This document shows positions 8,365-17,344 of a stretch of 64,000 nt of DNA, one piece after another. The notes beneath the pieces were generated by a model. That model made no database searches and was not told the origin of the DNA. It was given only the letters and a program-made list of their open reading frames with translations. The stretch is from Clostridiaceae bacterium Marseille-Q4149. Its GTDB lineage: Bacteria; Bacillota; Clostridia; Oscillospirales; Oscillospiraceae. Position numbers and translations under genes: made by a program. The DNA is taken from the NCBI GenBank assembly GCA_018228685.1, contig CP073691.1:2542001-2606000 (forward strand). The letters are read 5' to 3'. Within the stretch, counting starts at the first letter, position 1. Every line of letters begins with the position of its first letter.

Positions 8365-9288
8365 TTACGCCTGGGGCGGATCGTTCTCCACCAGCGCCTT
8401 GGCGCTGGCCGCCAGACCTGCCAGGCCCTGGATCTCGCTGGGGATAATGATCTTGGTGGCCTTGCCGTCGGCCATTTTCTCCAGAGCCTCCAGGCTCTTG
8501 AGCTTGATGACCTGGTCGTTGGGGGCGTTCTCGTTGAGCATGCGCATGGCGTCGGCCAGGGCCTGCTGCACCTTCATGATGGAGGTGGCCTCGGCCTCGG
8601 CAGCCATGATCTTGGCCTGCTTGGCGGCATCGGCCCGCAGAATGGCGGACTGCTTCTCGCCCTCGGCCACCAGGATCTTGCTGGCCTTCTCGCCCTCGGC
8701 CTGAAGGATGGACTCCCGGCGCTCGCGCTCGGCCTTCATCTGCTTTTCCATGGCGTTCTGGATCTCGCGGGGAGGCAGGATGTTCTTCAGCTCCACCCGG
8801 TTGACCTTGATGCCCCAGGGGTCCGTGGCCTCGTCCAGGATGGTGCGCATCTTGGCGTTGATGGTATCCCGGGAGGTGAGGCTCTGGTCCAGCTCCAGCT
8901 CGCCGATGATGTTGCGCAGGGTGGTGGCGGTGAGGTTCTCAATGGCGTTCATGGGATACTCCACGCCGTAGGTATACAGCTTGGGGTCGGTGATCTGGAA
9001 ATAGATCACGGTGTCGATCTGCATGGTGACGTTGTCCTTGGTGATCACGGGCTGGGGATCGAAATCCGCCACCTGCTCCTTCAGGCTGACCTTCTTCACC
9101 ACCCGCTCAATGAACGGGACCTTCAGATGGAAGCCCACGCCCCACACGGAGTGGAACGCGCCCAGGCGCTCCACCACATAGGCCTTGGACTGCTGCACGA
9201 TATAGATGTTGCGGACGATGACGATGAGCACCAGCACCACCAGAATGGCGATGGCCACTGCGCCGGGGATAGAGATGTTGCTTGGCAT
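8365..9288 (-). CDS. SPFH/band-7 membrane scaffold protein (stomatin/QmcA-like)
   Basis: A 307-residue protein with one N-terminal membrane anchor (about residues 8-26, AVAIAILVVLVLIVIV), then an SPFH domain starting at QSKAYVVERLGAFHSVWGVG and running to about 185, and a helical coiled-coil region rich in Glu/Ala/Lys (AEGEKASKILVAEGEKQ). These proteins oligomerise in membrane microdomains and often work with NfeD partners. GGAGG precedes the ATG. The gene lies 42 bases downstream of an NfeD-domain gene in the same orientation, the classic SPFH/NfeD pairing. Confidence 0.92.
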   Translation of the reverse strand: MPSNISIPGAVAIAILVVLVLIVIVRNIYIVQQSKAYVVERLGAFHSVWGVGFHLKVPFIERVVKKVSLKEQVADFDPQPVITKDNVTMQIDTVIYFQITDPKLYTYGVEYPMNAIENLTATTLRNIIGELELDQSLTSRDTINAKMRTILDEATDPWGIKVNRVELKNILPPREIQNAMEKQMKAERERRESILQAEGEKASKILVAEGEKQSAILRADAAKQAKIMAAEAEATSIMKVQQALADAMRMLNENAPNDQVIKLKSLEALEKMADGKATKIIIPSEIQGLAGLAASAKALVENDPPQA

Positions 9289-9330: not shown

Positions 9331-10140
9331 TTACACGGGTTCCACGAACAGGCGCACGCCCTCCATGCGGACGATCTTCACCTGCGCGTTGCGGGGGATG
9401 GGCTGGCCGCTTTCGCTGCGGGCGGTCCAGGTCATGCCGCCCACATACACCGCCCCGGTGGGCACGGCGTTGTCGATGCTCTCCGTGACCCGGGCGGTCT
9501 GGCCCAGCACGCGGTCGGCGTTGGTGGCGGTAACGTCCTTGTGCAGCAGCTTCTTCACCAGGGGCCGGGTGGCCGCCAGGCACACGATGGACACCACGAA
9601 GAACAGGGCCAGCTGCAGCCAGATGGGACCGCCGCAGATGGCGGCAATCAGCCCTGCCACGGAGCCCACTACGAACCAGATGGACGTCAGCCCCACGGTG
9701 ATGGCCTCCACCACGCCGAAGATCACCATGGCGGCGATCCAGATCAGCGTCATCATATCGGTGCTTCCTCCTTTCAGACACAGCCCCAGCACCAGGGCCA
9801 GAGCCAGGGTCACGGCCACTGCGCCGATGCCCAGCCACTTCTCCCGGGGGGCCAGATTGGCGAAAAACGCGGACAGCGCCGTTTTCAGGGTTTTCTCCGG
9901 CAGCGGGGCCTTGGGCACGTCCTGCACCGGAGCCTCCCGGGGCACCTCCTGGGAAAACAGCTCATCCAGGGACACCTGATACCGGTTGCAGATATAGAGG
10001 ATCTTCTCAATCTCCGGATATCCCCGGCAGGATTCCCATTTGCTGACGGCCTGCCGGGACACCTTCAGCTCCGCTGCGAACTGCTCCTGAGTCAGTCCCG
10101 CCCGGCGGCGCACCTCCTGTAACCGTTCTCCAAAGGCCAT
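9331..10140 (-). CDS. XRE-type HTH domain fused to an NfeD-like membrane domain
   Basis: The 269-residue frame joins two modules. Residues 1-62 are an XRE helix-turn-helix domain (LTQEQFAAELKVSRQAVSKWE), followed by a linker and a membrane segment at about 102-121. From Met129 onward it is a standard short NfeD protein: three or four hydrophobic segments (130-192) and a C-terminal OB-like domain (about 205-269, LGQTARVTESIDNAVPTGAVYVGG). HTH-plus-one-helix proteins that stop near residue 124 are common in Clostridia; here the frame continues straight into NfeD. The join itself encodes a strong ribosome site, so NfeD may also be made alone. It precedes the SPFH gene. A frameshift joining two genes is possible. 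Confidence 0.85.
   Translation of the reverse strand: MAFGERLQEVRRRAGLTQEQFAAELKVSRQAVSKWESCRGYPEIEKILYICNRYQVSLDELFSQEVPREAPVQDVPKAPLPEKTLKTALSAFFANLAPREKWLGIGAVAVTLALALVLGLCLKGGSTDMMTLIWIAAMVIFGVVEAITVGLTSIWFVVGSVAGLIAAICGGPIWLQLALFFVVSIVCLAATRPLVKKLLHKDVTATNADRVLGQTARVTESIDNAVPTGAVYVGGMTWTARSESGQPIPRNAQVKIVRMEGVRLFVEPV
9751..9774 (-). promoter_or_regulatory. Internal ribosome binding site for a free NfeD protein
   Basis: On the minus strand AAAGGAGGAAG (9774-9764) lies about eight bases before ATG ATG (9756-9751). Codons 124-130 of the fusion read K-G-G-S-T-D-M, so the ribosome site is translated as part of the linker. Starting at 9756 gives a 141-residue protein of normal NfeD length. 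Confidence 0.7.
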
Positions 10141-10271: not shown

Positions 10272-10342
10272 CTATATTTTCGCCTCCCGCGCCACAACAT
10301 TTTGAAAAATCCTCCGGATTTTTACCCGGCGGACAAATCGGC

Positions 10343-10371
10343 TTGACAAATGTTTCCTGCCCGTGTATACT
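10343..10371 (+). promoter_or_regulatory. Consensus promoter of the leader peptide/ABC exporter operon
   Basis: TTGACA (10343-10348), exactly 17 bases, TATACT (10366-10371): the strongest promoter match in the window. Such a promoter makes sense if expression is set by downstream attenuation rather than initiation. The gap 10272-10342 shows nothing else. Confidence 0.85.
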
Positions 10372-10403
10372 GAACCCATCTGATAAGAAAGGTGGTGCCC
10401 GAT

Positions 10404-10454
10404 ATGCTGTTTTATAACGCTTTTGTCGTGTCGGGGACCCTTGTGCGCCTGTAA
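10404..10454 (+). CDS. Leader peptide of 16 residues ahead of the exporter attenuator
   Basis: The frame MLFYNAFVVSGTLVRL starts at an ATG preceded by AAAGGTGGTG at a proper distance and ends in TAA at 10452-10454. It lies about 26 bases after the predicted start of transcription, between a consensus promoter and an intrinsic terminator. Residues 6-10, AFVVS, occupy the same positions as IFVIS in ErmCL, where macrolide-bound ribosomes stall at residue 9, and resemble IAVV of ErmAL1. B. subtilis bmrCD, which encodes a related heterodimeric exporter, is controlled by a translated leader (bmrB) and attenuation. The ORF is clear; the sensing role is inference. Confidence 0.7.
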   Translation: MLFYNAFVVSGTLVRL

Positions 10455-10456
10455 CG

Positions 10457-10524
10457 AGCCTGCCGTAAGATAGGGCGGGCCCCTTGCGGCTGTGTCGGCG
10501 TCCTCGGAAGGAGGGCGCTTTTTT
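10457..10524 (+). terminator. Attenuator: alternative hairpins and intrinsic terminator
   Basis: GCCTGCC pairs with GGCGGGC (about 10458-10464 with 10474-10480). The terminator proper is GCGTCCTC (10498-10505), loop GGAAG, GAGGGCGC (10511-10518), then T6 (10519-10524). GGGGACCC inside the leader ORF (10433-10440) can instead pair with GGGCCCC (10477-10483), which would break the first hairpin, so competing folds are possible. It lies upstream of the exporter genes, not after a gene, as expected for an attenuator. Confidence 0.75.
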
Positions 10525-10579
10525 CGTGCCCGGAATTTGGAAAAGAGAGAAGAATGAGAGAGGAAGTGTTTTTGCCTTC

Positions 10580-12418
10580 ATGGAAACCACCCGAAAATTA
10601 TCCCGGCGGGAGAAGCTCGCCCTGATCGGGAAATATCTGCGCCCCTGCTGGGGGCACTTTGCGGCGGCGCTGCTGTGCGCATGCCTGGCCATGGTGTTCA
10701 ACGCCCTGACGCCCCAGATCATCCGCATCACCGTGGACTCCATCCTGGGGCCCGAAACGCCCCAGCTGCCCGGATTCCTGATGTCCTGGCTGAACTGGGC
10801 GGCTCTGGAGGCCCAGCCCCTGCGGGCCCTGTGGTGGGCCGCTGCCGCCGTCCTGCTGACGGCCCTGCTGCGGGGCGTGTGCAGCTATGGCCAGCGGCTC
10901 CAGCTGGCCCGGGGCTCCGAGAGCTACGTCAAGGGCATCCGGGACGATCTGTACCGCCACATTCAGTATCTGCCCTTTGCCTGGCACAAGAATAACCCCA
11001 CCGGCGATATCATCCAGCGCTGCACCTCCGACGTGGACGTGATCCGCCAGTTCGTGTGCAATCAGCTGGTGGAGGTGGTGCGCACGGTGTTTCTCATCGC
11101 GCTGTACCTATGCATCATGTTCACCATGAACCTGCGCCTGTCCCTGATCTCGGCGCTGTTCATCCCCATTGTGGGCCTGTCCTCCGGTGTGTTCTACAAG
11201 AAAATCTCCGGCCGCTTCCAGGCCGCCGACGAGGCGGAGGGCGACCTGACCACCTGCGCCCAGGAGAACCTCACCGCCGTCCGGGTGGTCCGGGCCTTCG
11301 GCCGGGAGCGGTATGAGGAGGAGAAGTTCAACGGGAAAAACCAACGCTTCTCCCAGCTGTGGATCCGGCTGGGAAAGCTCCTGTCCGTATACTGGGCCTC
11401 CGGCACCCTGCTGACCTGCCTGCAGGTGATGGTCATCGTGGTGGCCGGCGCCTGCGAATGCGTGGCCGGGCGGATGACCCTGGGCTCCTTTGTGGCCTTC
11501 GTCACCTATAACGAGGCTCTGGCCTGGCCCGTCCGTTCCCTGGGCCGGGTGCTGTCCGATATGAGCAAGGCCGGGGTGTCCATGGACCGCGTGGGCTATA
11601 TCCTCAACGCCCGGGAGGAGCGGGACCTGCCCGACGCCGTGGACGCCGTAAACGGCGACATCGTCTTTGACCACGTCAGCTTTGCCTACGACGGCCAGCC
11701 GGTGCTGGAGGACGTGTCCTTTACCATTCACCAAGGGGAGACCTTTGCCATTCTGGGGGGCACCGGCTCCGGCAAGAGCACTCTGGTGCACCTGCTGGAC
11801 CGGCTGTATGACCTGCCGAAGGGCGGCGGCTCCATCACCATCGGCGGGGTGGACATCCGCCGCATGAAGCGGGAGTCCCTGCGCCGCCAGATCGGCCTGG
11901 TGCTCCAGGAGCCTTTCCTGTTCTCCCAGACCGTGGGCGAGAATATCTGCGCCGTGCGGCCGGACGCCGGGGACGAGGCCATGCGCCGGGCCGCCGCCGT
12001 GGCCTGCGTGGACGAGGCCATCTCCGCCTTCCCCCAGGGGTACGACACCGTGGTGGGCGAGCGGGGCGTCACCCTGTCCGGCGGACAGAAGCAGCGGGTG
12101 GCCATCGCCCGGATGCTGATGCAGCAGGCCCCCATTATGGTGTTTGACGACTCCCTGTCCGCCGTGGACGCCGAAACCGACGCCAGGATCCGCGCCGCCC
12201 TGCGGGACACCCTGCACAGCGCCACCGTGCTGCTGATCTCCCACCGGGTCACCACCCTGATGCAGGCCGACCGCATTCTGGTGCTGGACGGCGGCCGGGT
12301 GTCCGCCCTGGGCGCCCACCGGGAGCTGATTGACCGCCCCGGCATTTACCGGGATATTTACGACATCCAGATGCGCAGCGATGACCGCGCCCTGGTGGAG
12401 GAAGGAGGGAACGCCTGA
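10580..12418 (+). CDS. Heterodimeric multidrug ABC exporter subunit, degenerate-site half (BmrC-like)
   Basis: A 612-residue half-transporter: six membrane helices (about 35-330), then an ATP-binding domain. Walker A is GGTGSGKST (393-401) and the signature is canonical LSGGQKQR (499-506). Walker B reads VFDDSLSAVD, with Asp524 where the catalytic Glu should be. This loss in one partner is typical of BmrC/YheI, TM287 and other heterodimeric exporters. The ATG at 10580 is my choice; AGAGGAAG is about 13 bases upstream, rather far, and a GTG at 10527 is the in-frame alternative. Its stop overlaps the next start (TGATG), so the halves are translationally coupled. Confidence 0.9.
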   Translation: METTRKLSRREKLALIGKYLRPCWGHFAAALLCACLAMVFNALTPQIIRITVDSILGPETPQLPGFLMSWLNWAALEAQPLRALWWAAAAVLLTALLRGVCSYGQRLQLARGSESYVKGIRDDLYRHIQYLPFAWHKNNPTGDIIQRCTSDVDVIRQFVCNQLVEVVRTVFLIALYLCIMFTMNLRLSLISALFIPIVGLSSGVFYKKISGRFQAADEAEGDLTTCAQENLTAVRVVRAFGRERYEEEKFNGKNQRFSQLWIRLGKLLSVYWASGTLLTCLQVMVIVVAGACECVAGRMTLGSFVAFVTYNEALAWPVRSLGRVLSDMSKAGVSMDRVGYILNAREERDLPDAVDAVNGDIVFDHVSFAYDGQPVLEDVSFTIHQGETFAILGGTGSGKSTLVHLLDRLYDLPKGGGSITIGGVDIRRMKRESLRRQIGLVLQEPFLFSQTVGENICAVRPDAGDEAMRRAAAVACVDEAISAFPQGYDTVVGERGVTLSGGQKQRVAIARMLMQQAPIMVFDDSLSAVDAETDARIRAALRDTLHSATVLLISHRVTTLMQADRILVLDGGRVSALGAHRELIDRPGIYRDIYDIQMRSDDRALVEEGGNA

Positions 12419-14244
12419 TGGCTGCCTTCGACGAGAAAGATTATACAAGATCCTTTGACTGGAGCATCTGGAAAAGGCTGACCCCTTTTGTGCGGCCTTT
12501 CCGCCGGGACTTTGTAGGGATGCTGGTGTTCAACGGCCTGTGCGCCCTGGTGGACGTGGCCATTCCCCTGTTCCAGCGCTACGCCATCCGCGGCTTCATC
12601 CAGGTGGATTCCCTCCGGGGCATCGTGCCCTTCTCCCTGGTGTATCTGCTGGTAATTCTTTTACAGGCTCTGTCCGTGGTGGCCTTCGCCCGCAACTCCA
12701 TGACCATCGAGATGAACATGGGCCGGGATATGCGCCGCTCCCTGTTCCACCATCTCCAGACCCTGTCCTTCTCCTTCTATAACGTGACCCCCGTGGGCTA
12801 TCTGTTGACCCGGGTCATGAGCGATACAAACCGCATTGCCAGCATGATCGCCTGGAACATGACGGATATCCTCTGGGCCCTGTTCTATGTGCTGGGCACC
12901 TTTGCGGCCATGCTGGCCCTGAACTGGCGGCTGGCCCTGGTGGTCATCGTCATCGTGCCTGTCATGGCGGTGCTCACCGGATATTTCCAGAACCGCATCC
13001 TCCGCTGGAACCGGAAGGTCCGGAAGCTGAACTCCCGCATCACCGGCTCTTTCAACGAGGGCATCACCGGCGCCAAAACCACCAAGACCCTGGGCACCGA
13101 GGAGCAGACCGTGGCCGCCTTCCGGGACCTGACCCGCCAGATGCACGACGCCGGCATCGGCGCGGCCCGGCTCAATGCCATCTATATCCCGCTGGTGCTG
13201 TTTGCCAGCACCATGGCCGTGGCCATTGTGCTGCTGCGGGGCGGGTATATGGTGTCGGGGGGACTGCTGGAGCTGGCCACCCTCTCCACCTTCACCACCT
13301 ACGCCGTGGGCATTTTCGAGCCCATCCAGATGACCGCCGCCAACATCGCCGAGTTCATCTCCCTCCAGGCCTCCATCGAGCGGGTCATGGACCTGATGGA
13401 CAAGACCCCCCAGATCCAGGACGCCCCGGAGGTCATCGAAAAGTACGGCGACGCCTTCCACCCCAAGCGGGAGAACTGGGAGCCCATCCGGGGCGAGATC
13501 GAGTTCCGGGACGTGACCTTCCGCTATCCCGACGGCGGCGGCAACGTGCTGGAGCACTTCTCCCTGCACATTCCCCAGGGGTCCACCGTGGCCATCGTGG
13601 GCGAAACCGGCGCGGGTAAGAGCACCCTGGTGAACCTGGCCTGCCGGTTCTTCGAGCCCACGGAGGGCAAGATTCTCATCGACGGCGTGGACTATCGCCA
13701 ACGCAGCCAGCTGTGGCTTCACAGCAGCATCGGCTACGTGCTCCAGGACCCCCACCTGTTCTCCGGCACCGTCCGGGAGAACATCCGCTACGGGAAGCTG
13801 GATGCCACCGATGCGCAGGTGGAGGCCGCCGCCCGGGCCGTGTCCGCCGACACGGTGGTGGCCAAGCTGGAAAAGGGCTGGGACAGCGACGTGGGCGAGG
13901 GCGGCGGACGGCTCTCCACCGGCGAAAAGCAGCTGATCTCCTTTGCCCGGGCCGTGCTGGCGGACCCCCGCATCTTCGTCCTGGACGAGGCCACCTCCTC
14001 CATCGACACCCAGACCGAGCAGCTGATCCAGCAGGCCATCGACCACCTGCTCCAGGACCGCACCTCCTTCCTGATCGCCCACCGGCTCTCCACCATCCGC
14101 AAGGCGGACATGATCCTGGTGGTCCGGGACGGCCGCATCGTGGAGCAGGGCACCCACCAGGAGCTGCTGCGCCGCCATGGCTATTACCACGATCTTTACA
14201 GCAAGCAGTTCGCCGAGGAATCTGCGGCCCGCATCCTGCAATAA
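12418..14244 (+). CDS. Heterodimeric multidrug ABC exporter subunit, catalytic half (BmrD-like)
   Basis: The partner half-transporter, 608 residues. Six membrane helices are followed by an ATP-binding domain with Walker A GETGAGKST (395-403), Walker B FVLDEATSSID with the catalytic Glu524, and a degenerate signature LSTGEKQL (499-506) instead of LSGGQ. Combined with the first subunit this gives one intact ATP site (this Walker A/B with the partner's LSGGQ) and one degenerate site, the BmrCD/TmrAB pattern. GGAGG sits 8 bases before the ATG inside the end of the previous gene. Export of drugs or lipid-like compounds is likely; the actual substrate is unknown. Confidence 0.92.
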   Translation: MAAFDEKDYTRSFDWSIWKRLTPFVRPFRRDFVGMLVFNGLCALVDVAIPLFQRYAIRGFIQVDSLRGIVPFSLVYLLVILLQALSVVAFARNSMTIEMNMGRDMRRSLFHHLQTLSFSFYNVTPVGYLLTRVMSDTNRIASMIAWNMTDILWALFYVLGTFAAMLALNWRLALVVIVIVPVMAVLTGYFQNRILRWNRKVRKLNSRITGSFNEGITGAKTTKTLGTEEQTVAAFRDLTRQMHDAGIGAARLNAIYIPLVLFASTMAVAIVLLRGGYMVSGGLLELATLSTFTTYAVGIFEPIQMTAANIAEFISLQASIERVMDLMDKTPQIQDAPEVIEKYGDAFHPKRENWEPIRGEIEFRDVTFRYPDGGGNVLEHFSLHIPQGSTVAIVGETGAGKSTLVNLACRFFEPTEGKILIDGVDYRQRSQLWLHSSIGYVLQDPHLFSGTVRENIRYGKLDATDAQVEAAARAVSADTVVAKLEKGWDSDVGEGGGRLSTGEKQLISFARAVLADPRIFVLDEATSSIDTQTEQLIQQAIDHLLQDRTSFLIAHRLSTIRKADMILVVRDGRIVEQGTHQELLRRHGYYHDLYSKQFAEESAARILQ

Positions 14245-15952: not shown

Positions 15953-17323
15953 TTACCAGCTCTGGGCCGACAGGATGACCTTCTTATAGCTGCGGCGGAA
16001 ATAGAGAATCTCCGCGGCGCCGGTGATGGCCCAGGAGAAGATATACAGCAGATACAGGGAGGTGATGGTGCCCAGCCAGGCGAACACGGTGTATACCCAG
16101 ATGACCCGGAACACGCAGGAGCCCAGAATAACGATCACCGTGGGGCCTACGCTTTTGCCGATGCCCCGGGAGGCGGCGATGCTGGCGTCCATCAGCGGGG
16201 ACACCACATAGGAAAAGCTCATGATCCGCAGCCGCTGCATGCCTGCGTCGATGACCGCCGTCTCGTTGGCAAACAGGCCCAGGAAGCTCCGGCCGAAAAA
16301 CAGCAGCAGCAGACCGCACACGGCCCCCACCCCGGCAGCGTAGCACATGCTCACCAGGTAGCTTTTGACGATGCGCTCGGTTTTGCCGGCGCCCCAGTTC
16401 CGGCTGACGAAGCTGGCGCAGCCGGTATAGAAGGCCGCCATCATGTTAAAGAGCAGGGTATCGGCGTTGGCGGCGGCGGAGCTGCCGGACACCGTGACGG
16501 CGTCGAAGGAGTTCAGGCCCACCTGGACAAACAGGTTGGCCACGGCGAAAATGGCGTTCTGCAGCCCCGTGGGGATGCCGATGGCCAGGACCCGGCGGGC
16601 CTCCTGGGGATGGACCCGGAGGCGGCGCAGCTCCAGGCGGCAGGCGTCCTTCCGCCGCAGCAGGTGCAGCACGATCAGCAGGGCCGACAGGCACTGGGCG
16701 ATGACGCTGGCGATGGCCACGCCCTCGGCGGCCATGTGGCAGCGGATCACAAAGAACAGGTTCAGGACCACGTTCAGCACACCGGCAACGGACAGATACA
16801 GCAGAGGCCGCCGGGTGTCGCCCACGGCGCTCATGATGCCGTTGCCGCAGTTGTACACGGCCATGGCCGGCATACTCAGGGCGTATATCTTCAGGTAGAG
16901 GACGGCCCCATCCATCAGCTCGTCCTTGGTGTGCAGCAGGGTCAGCATGGGCCGGGCCAGCAGCACGCAGATCAGGCACAGCACCACGCCGATGGCGGCG
17001 CACAGCACAAAGGACGTGTGAACGGTTTTTTCCACCCGCTGCCTATCCCCCATGCCCAGGCCCCGGGCCACCGCCACGTTGACGCCGCTGCCCATGCCGA
17101 TCAGCAGTCCCGTGAACAGCGACACCAGCAGCGTGGTGGAGCCCACGGCTCCCAGCGCCCGGTAGTCCGCGAACTTGCCGGCAATGGCCACGTCGCTGAG
17201 GTTGAACAGCACCTCCAGCACCTGGGTCAGCATCAGGGGCAGGCTGAACAGCAGCATGTTTTTCCACAGGGAGCCTTCCGTCATGTTGACGGACAGGGCG
17301 CTCTTTTTTTGCGTCGCTTCCAT
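15953..17323 (-). CDS. MATE-family efflux transporter
   Basis: A 456-residue, twelve-helix cation-coupled exporter of the multidrug and toxin extrusion family, NorM/DinF type. It shows the family start LWKNMLLFSLPLMLTQVLEVLFNLSDVAIAGKF, an internal repeat of the same pattern in the second half (IGIPTGLQNAIFAVANLFVQVGLNSF), and conserved NWGAGKTERI and AASRGIGKS segments. ATG 17323 follows AAGAGGTG; a GTG nine bases upstream is the alternative. It is divergently transcribed from the ABC importer operon, with palindromes between them. The substrate cannot be read from the sequence. Confidence 0.92.
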   Translation of the reverse strand: MEATQKKSALSVNMTEGSLWKNMLLFSLPLMLTQVLEVLFNLSDVAIAGKFADYRALGAVGSTTLLVSLFTGLLIGMGSGVNVAVARGLGMGDRQRVEKTVHTSFVLCAAIGVVLCLICVLLARPMLTLLHTKDELMDGAVLYLKIYALSMPAMAVYNCGNGIMSAVGDTRRPLLYLSVAGVLNVVLNLFFVIRCHMAAEGVAIASVIAQCLSALLIVLHLLRRKDACRLELRRLRVHPQEARRVLAIGIPTGLQNAIFAVANLFVQVGLNSFDAVTVSGSSAAANADTLLFNMMAAFYTGCASFVSRNWGAGKTERIVKSYLVSMCYAAGVGAVCGLLLLFFGRSFLGLFANETAVIDAGMQRLRIMSFSYVVSPLMDASIAASRGIGKSVGPTVIVILGSCVFRVIWVYTVFAWLGTITSLYLLYIFSWAITGAAEILYFRRSYKKVILSAQSW

Positions 17324-17344
17324 GAAACACACCTCTTATCCAAA

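Follow-up and report, generated by a model that had tools for sequence, protein, structure and literature searches.

In the window, meaning the whole 64-kb stretch of DNA that was analysed, a promoter, a ribosome site, a short leader ORF, an intrinsic terminator and two overlapping exporter genes follow one another in this order within 4 kb (Table 1). The promoter, the 16-codon leader with its ribosome site and the terminator in front of the exporter were all found where an earlier note on this DNA had placed them.

Table 1. Features of the exporter locus, in coordinates of the window
Feature	Position	Strand	Basis
Sigma-70-type promoter, TTGACA-17-TATACT	10343..10371	+	sequence scan
Strand A: leader Shine-Dalgarno (SD) and spacer, 5' strand of the predicted anti-antiterminator	10388..10403	+	folding, permutations
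Leader ORF MLFYNAFVVSGTLVRL and stop	10404..10454	+	read directly
Strand B: predicted partner of A, or (10432-10438) of 10500-10506	10429..10451	+	permutations, folding
Strand C: terminator 5' arm	10497..10506	+	scan, folding
Strand D: terminator 3' arm and T run	10510..10524	+	direct reading, scan
ABC exporter subunit 1, FDDSLS at Walker B, degenerate-site type	10580..12418	+	ORF scan, domain and PDB matches
ABC exporter subunit 2, LDEATSS at Walker B	12418..14244	+	ORF scan, domain and PDB matches

Both exporter subunits contain ABC_membrane and ABC_tran domains, and FDDSLS in one subunit opposite LDEATSS in the other is what heterodimeric exporters usually show when one of their ATP sites is degenerate and the other active. 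For subunit 1, the highest-scoring bacterial PDB entries are SAV1866 (312 bits), the 5mkk/6raf exporter (309), which we take to be TmrAB, YheI (306) and TM_0288 (291), with eukaryotic ABCB chains scoring above them; subunit 2 matches 6raf/5mkk chain A (339), TM_0288 (317) and YheH (310). The genes thus appear to encode a heterodimeric ABC pair, BmrCD-like in type, that would presumably export drugs. The designation "BmrCD-like exporter" in the earlier note holds for the heterodimeric pair, as judged from the domains; the PDB matches do not establish a specific orthology to BmrCD. Diverging from the exporter promoter, a minus-strand gene (9331-10140) encodes an NfeD-like membrane protein that carries a fused helix-turn-helix domain, and a Band 7/SPFH gene (8365-9288, minus strand) adjoins it. 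A MATE-family efflux gene (MatE; 15953-17332, minus strand) is located 1.7 kb past the exporter, behind a gene that we take from its sequence to be acetate-kinase-like.

The promoter (TTGACA at 10343-10348, a 17-nt gap, and TATACT ending at 10371) matches the consensus at 11 of 12 positions. An SD-like AAAGGTGG at 10388-10395, seen by direct reading and by scan, precedes the 16 codons of the leader, which start with ATG at 10404, end with TAA at 10452-10454 and encode the peptide MLFYNAFVVSGTLVRL. The terminator hairpin was located by scan at 10497-10519, with T's to 10524. Folding of 10378-10530 gave a minimum free energy of -62.1 kcal/mol (z -2.50), and 2 of 200 shuffles fold equally well. 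Rfam 15 yielded no match at the gathering score in the leader and none at E<=1 in 10300-10620, and a search of NCBIfam with the 16-mer, lengthened to 20 residues by padding, found no peptide family. In the 64-kb window as a whole, only four candidate combinations of leader and terminator were found, and the three besides the exporter leader look weak. The gap between terminator and exporter (10562-10577) contains 15-base matches (GGAAGTGTTTTTGCC, GAAGTGTTTTTGCCT) to strand B of the leaders of two relatives, L008 and L010, the latter from the cultured Caproicibacter fermentans; the matches may represent either a fossil of another leader or chance.

Relatives of the exporter were collected from genome contigs (93 found, the best 80 kept) and from whole genomes, where the exporter was found in 73 of 400 genomes of the family of L001 at E<=1e-180 and in 14 of 250 genomes of the family of L008 at E<=1e-215. 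The former family is taken as Oscillospiraceae because the Oscillospiraceae member L004 falls in the same search. Upstream regions were extracted for 80 loci, and 41 of the 80 best contig loci were scanned (L031 and L043-L080 were left out). Leaders were present in 10/10 of L001-L010, in L034, L036 and L038, in 20/20 of those of L081-L102 that have upstream sequence (L083 and L094 have none), and in 9/14 of L151-L164. No leader was recognised in the upstream regions of L041, L103, L104 and the other five of L151-L164, nor was such a leader seen among the more distant exporters listed (about 50% identity). Further exporter searches in a genus (1/32), again in the family (20/370, every one already known) and in a second genus (2/25, likewise known) added no new leader. 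L085, L095 and L096 repeat L001, L004 and L005, and L152 and L160 repeat L008 and L010; the working set consists of 38 distinct leaders, the window and 37 relatives, which are related to each other. Leader starts were marked by eye from SD and ATG, partly after the complementarity described below had been noticed, and the L089 leader and the L101 ORF were likewise assigned by eye.

The layout of leader ORF, terminator and exporter is kept in these relatives, as read from their sequences. It is more than a chance arrangement: a leader ORF with SD and terminator precedes the exporter in all 20 Oscillospiraceae-type family loci with at least about 66% identity and upstream sequence, so that the search proposed earlier for an equivalent leader before other Oscillospiraceae exporters had a positive outcome. 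A terminator-like hairpin lies behind all 38 leaders, 21-49 nt from the stop codon (42 nt in the window), and a promoter match of at least 10/12 is found upstream in 36.

Strand A, from the SD to the AUG, is complementary to strand B, which lies toward the 3' end of the leader ORF. Examples are GGCATACAGG with CCTGTATGCC in L099, GGCCGCAAA with TTTGCGGCC in L034, and GCAGGCAAA with TTTGCCTGT in L010. The mean A:B energy is -18.7 kcal/mol in native leaders versus -14.8 when ORFs are swapped between species, and none of 20000 permutations reached the native sum; the same swap test on 30 non-redundant leaders (eight near-duplicates removed) gave 0/50000. A:B also surpassed codon-shuffled ORFs at p<0.05 in 33 of the 38 leaders, failing in L006, L036, L093, L159 and L162. 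Positions 8-15 of A each occur in three to six pair types (wobble included, A not length-aligned), and B starts in frame 0, 1 or 2 in 15, 13 and 10 leaders, respectively. The use of all three frames and the varied pair types argue for conservation of B at the RNA level rather than in the peptide. A:B complementarity thus follows the species, and the leader peptides are not conserved, as far as sequence comparison goes. In ribosome-free folds, eight of the 38 leaders form at most 1.2 A:B pairs. As a codon-level test of translation, a frame-blind search found B in open frame 0 in 29/38 leaders, and in frames +1 and +2 in 3 and 11; this count carries little weight, as frames without any stop (5 and 7) were scored closed, most starts read ATGA, which closes frame +1 at once, and the frame-blind partner differs from B in 6/38. 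The absence of stops in 917 codons is circular, because B was sought inside the ORF.

Strand B can also pair past the stop codon, toward the terminator 5' arm (C). In the window this pairing is specific when the RNA ends at that arm: CGGGGAC at 10432-10438 pairs with GTCCTCG at 10500-10506, which is the terminator's own 5' arm. For the effect of a ribosome, each RNA was folded to the end of the terminator 5' arm with the bases from -15 to +14 of the first base of the P-site codon held unpaired. Over the 38 leaders, the ribosome-free mean was 7.25 A:B pairs and 2.5 B:downstream pairs; a ribosome on codon 1 changed these means to 0.01 and 8.3, and one on the stop codon to 2.96 and 1.45. B:downstream pairing decreased from 8.3 to 7.0 along codons 1-4, then to 5.6 on codon 5, 4.1 on codon 6 and 3.1 on codon 7, where A:B was back to 5.6. 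The modelled switch is therefore on for codons 1-4, mixed for 5-6 and off from 7. Averaged over all positions at which the ribosome covers B, both A:B and B:downstream were low (1.1 and 0.9). The window behaves alike: codons 1-4 were on with three different footprints, the outcome on codons 5-6 varied between footprints, and B:downstream stayed at or below 4.3 from codon 7 onward, compared with 15.4 for a ribosome on codon 1 and 6.8 without ribosome.

Native leaders exceeded the mean of 40 codon shuffles on three measures of this switch in 35, 32 and 36 of the 38 cases, with Wilcoxon p of about 1e-10, 1e-6 and 5e-11 over 38 related rows, uncorrected for relatedness. For the window, 13, 71 and 4 of 300 codon shuffles matched the native switch on single measures, and none on all three. 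On average, pairing of the terminator 5' arm went no further than from 0.53 to 0.71, and it was 0.63 when the ribosome sat at the stop codon. When the window RNA was folded at full length, the equilibrium probability of the terminator was 0.88 without ribosome, 0.38 with a ribosome on codon 1, 0.68-0.88 on codons 2-11 and 15-16 (0.78-0.88 on codons 2-6), and 0.28-0.58 on codons 12-14. As the full-length equilibrium favours the terminator, the switch would have to act during transcription, as a kinetic process. The B:C fold and its dependence on ribosome position are thus features of the folding models.

These data bear on a rival view, in which the main role of A:B is to limit translation of the leader by concealing its SD once one round is complete; the terminator, with no B:C switch, would then be an ordinary attenuator or insulator. 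The leader SD is indeed part of A, equilibrium folding favours the terminator, and B:C is weak in single leaders, only 5/38 reaching p<=0.05 against shuffled C. Against this view, the gain in ORF:downstream pairing on masking codon 1 surpassed the codon-shuffled mean in 32/38 leaders, and plain B:C duplexes swapped between leaders were worse in aggregate (0/20000 permutations, and 0/50000 on the 30 non-redundant leaders). A mainly translation-limiting role without a B:C switch is judged unlikely.

The earlier note had linked the switch to a macrolide-arrest-like motif in the peptide, at which a drug-stalled ribosome would shift the RNA fold and block the terminator. In an ErmCL-type form of this reading, a ribosome with bound macrolide would be arrested near V9 of MLFYNAFVV-S by its nascent chain. 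The letters do coincide at F7, V8 and S10 with F, V and S of ErmCL if the sequence of the latter is as given in that note. Within the leader, strand B (core about 10430-10439, from the end of codon V9 to T12) encodes part of V9 together with S10, G11 and T12, and F7 and V8 lie outside it, so that the F7-V8 share of the likeness would be chance. An AFVV/IFVI-like motif occurs in only 1 of the 38 leaders, that of the window, and the peptides, of 16-45 codons, are unrelated and have no overall shared motif. Eight close pairs of leaders, some with a common member, differ by 5-11 nonsynonymous versus 1-3 synonymous codons, with no third-position excess, as expected if the leader residues are free. 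The leader ORF, the alternative folds and the position of the terminator before the exporter agree with the earlier proposal. In the models, a ribosome at codon 9 masks B rather than releasing it, and B:downstream is 2.7 there versus 6.8 in free RNA (2.8 and 1.8 with the two other footprints). With a ribosome on codons 7-16, the terminator 5' arm of the window was modelled as 0.69 paired upstream, with A, versus 0.41 in ribosome-free RNA, and the full-length terminator probability was 0.71 at codon 9 versus 0.88. A codon-9 stall may thus have some effect, and it is for these two values that arrest of the ErmCL type is kept as a reading, a quite improbable one; conservation does not support it and the geometry does so only in part.

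An amino-acid-sensing leader of the trp-operon type, reading the supply of one charged tRNA, would share the leader, the alternative folds and the terminator, and a comparable A:B helix is found in a Met-rich leader upstream of a metN-like gene (L169, below), but the exporter leaders contain no one-residue run in any of the 38 peptides and their commonest residues at positions 2-10 are only Thr (10.5%) and Asn (10.2%), which makes this reading very improbable indeed.

Searches for the A:B layout as a pattern gave matches in 6/300 and 5/300 genomes, compared with 1/300 and 0/300 for a reversed-pattern control. Besides exporters, the matches include two possible leaders (L166, L169) and an ordinary gene start (L168); judged by their letters, L171 and L172 seem to be a gene start and a random match. 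In L169, on the minus strand, the Met-rich leader MRNCYGMMMDRMGMMRMPTSPRACFPVVTR, with a promoter-like site and a terminator, lies upstream of a gene at 394-1401. Its SD-spacer:ORF-end helix has -21.8 kcal/mol, and the downstream gene is metN-like, with ABC_tran and NIL domains. This leader may be a methionine attenuator; a simple folding model does not show Met-codon stalls releasing A:B. In L166, the SD spacer of a Cys- and Ala-rich ORF, from about position 1500, is complementary to codons of that same ORF; a terminator-like hairpin lies before a substrate-binding-protein gene, and the frame of the ORF is open past the hairpin.

The exporter leader is probably a ribosome-mediated transcription attenuator of the bmrB/vmlR/rli kind, which would sense a start-proximal delay of the ribosome with little dependence on the peptide. 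With no ribosome on the leader, or after its passage, A would pair with B, hiding the leader ribosome site and leaving the terminator C:D free to form, and the exporter would be off. A would instead be covered by a ribosome delayed on about the first four codons; B could then pair forward with C, RNA polymerase would read through, and the exporter would be on. The leader would have to be translated, its peptide sequence being largely free, and the signal would be the residence of the ribosome close to the start codon, an effect expected of drugs acting against initiation or early elongation. We infer from this scheme the need for leader translation, induction by drugs, readthrough and drug export. 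Residue 2 is Thr in 15 of the 38 otherwise unrelated peptides. Chloramphenicol and linezolid prefer Ala, Ser or Thr at the penultimate position. Thr at residue 2 fits early stalling, and relatedness or codon effects could equally explain the count.

More tentatively, with somewhat less than even confidence, Oscillospiraceae and their relatives may have a lineage-wide class of attenuators with a peptide-blind leader, translated but free in its residues, whose only readout would be whether a ribosome sits on roughly the first four codons. Such a class would answer inhibitors of initiation and early elongation whatever their chemistry. Other operons, such as that of L169, may have adopted a related SD-spacer:ORF-end helix.

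With the attenuator reading of the exporter leader, the peptide-motif account would be replaced by a testable RNA account, in which the protein sequence of the leader can diverge almost freely while the switch stays. The predicted inducers of this exporter in gut and rumen relatives would be start-proximal inhibitors rather than those of ErmCL-type macrolide arrest. Systems of this kind can escape searches that look for conserved leader peptides.

In Bacillus subtilis, induction of bmrCD requires both translation of the bmrB leader and its terminator, and occurs with lincomycin, erythromycin and chloramphenicol but not with kanamycin or gentamicin (PMC4191407). The present locus resembles it in a translated leader (here inferred) and intrinsic terminator before a heterodimeric ABC exporter, and in predicted terminator, antiterminator and anti-antiterminator folds (PMC4191407). 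The bmrB leader differs in having 53 codons, with the terminator inside its coding region, whereas the window leader ends before the terminator, and an SD-spacer:ORF-end helix is not described in the accessible part of that paper (PMC4191407). No description of such a helix with an unconstrained peptide was found in searches of the open-licence literature.

Short uORFs that govern ABCF genes are similar in mechanism. At the B. subtilis vmlR uORF (MIN), a stalled ribosome prevents the anti-antiterminator so that the antiterminator forms, and initiation-stalling drugs induce (PMC9226507); at the cplR uORF (MRI) of Clostridioides difficile, ribosome stalling relieves transcription attenuation (PMC10201436). 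In both, as in silico here, the uORF is within an anti-antiterminator disrupted by a start-proximal ribosome (PMC9226507; PMC10201436), and the repressed fold of cplR likewise includes a 5' hairpin that surrounds the uORF (PMC10201436). The vmlR uORF has only three codons and precedes an ABCF gene (PMC9226507), in contrast to the 16-45 codons before an ABC exporter found here, and cplR differs by its conserved three-codon uORF, its ABCF gene and a terminator that also hides the downstream SD (PMC10201436). Two peptide variants of the vmlR uORF work as well as the native one and a third is weaker (PMC9226507), and its sequence has been called crucial (PMC10201436); the peptide thus matters there to some degree, unlike in the present proposal.

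In Listeria, the anti-antiterminators of rli53-lmo0919 and rli80-hflXr also overlap a small ORF, and rli59-lmo1652, before an ABC transporter, answers several translation inhibitors; unlike the leaders described here, the rli53 ORF has 3 residues and the rli80 ORF has 14 with an RLR arrest motif (PMC8079631; PMC6310831). The toiL uORF of Escherichia coli is another single uORF that senses several drug classes, start-codon stalls included, and stalls anywhere in it were proposed to work, but it acts by unmasking a translation start and relieving Rho termination (PMC12121999). By analogy, bmrB-bmrCD and vmlR seem mechanistically closest to the proposed attenuator, which would be a variation in which the SD spacer supplies one helix strand, and the 3' end of a longer ORF, with a peptide that looks unconstrained, supplies the other.
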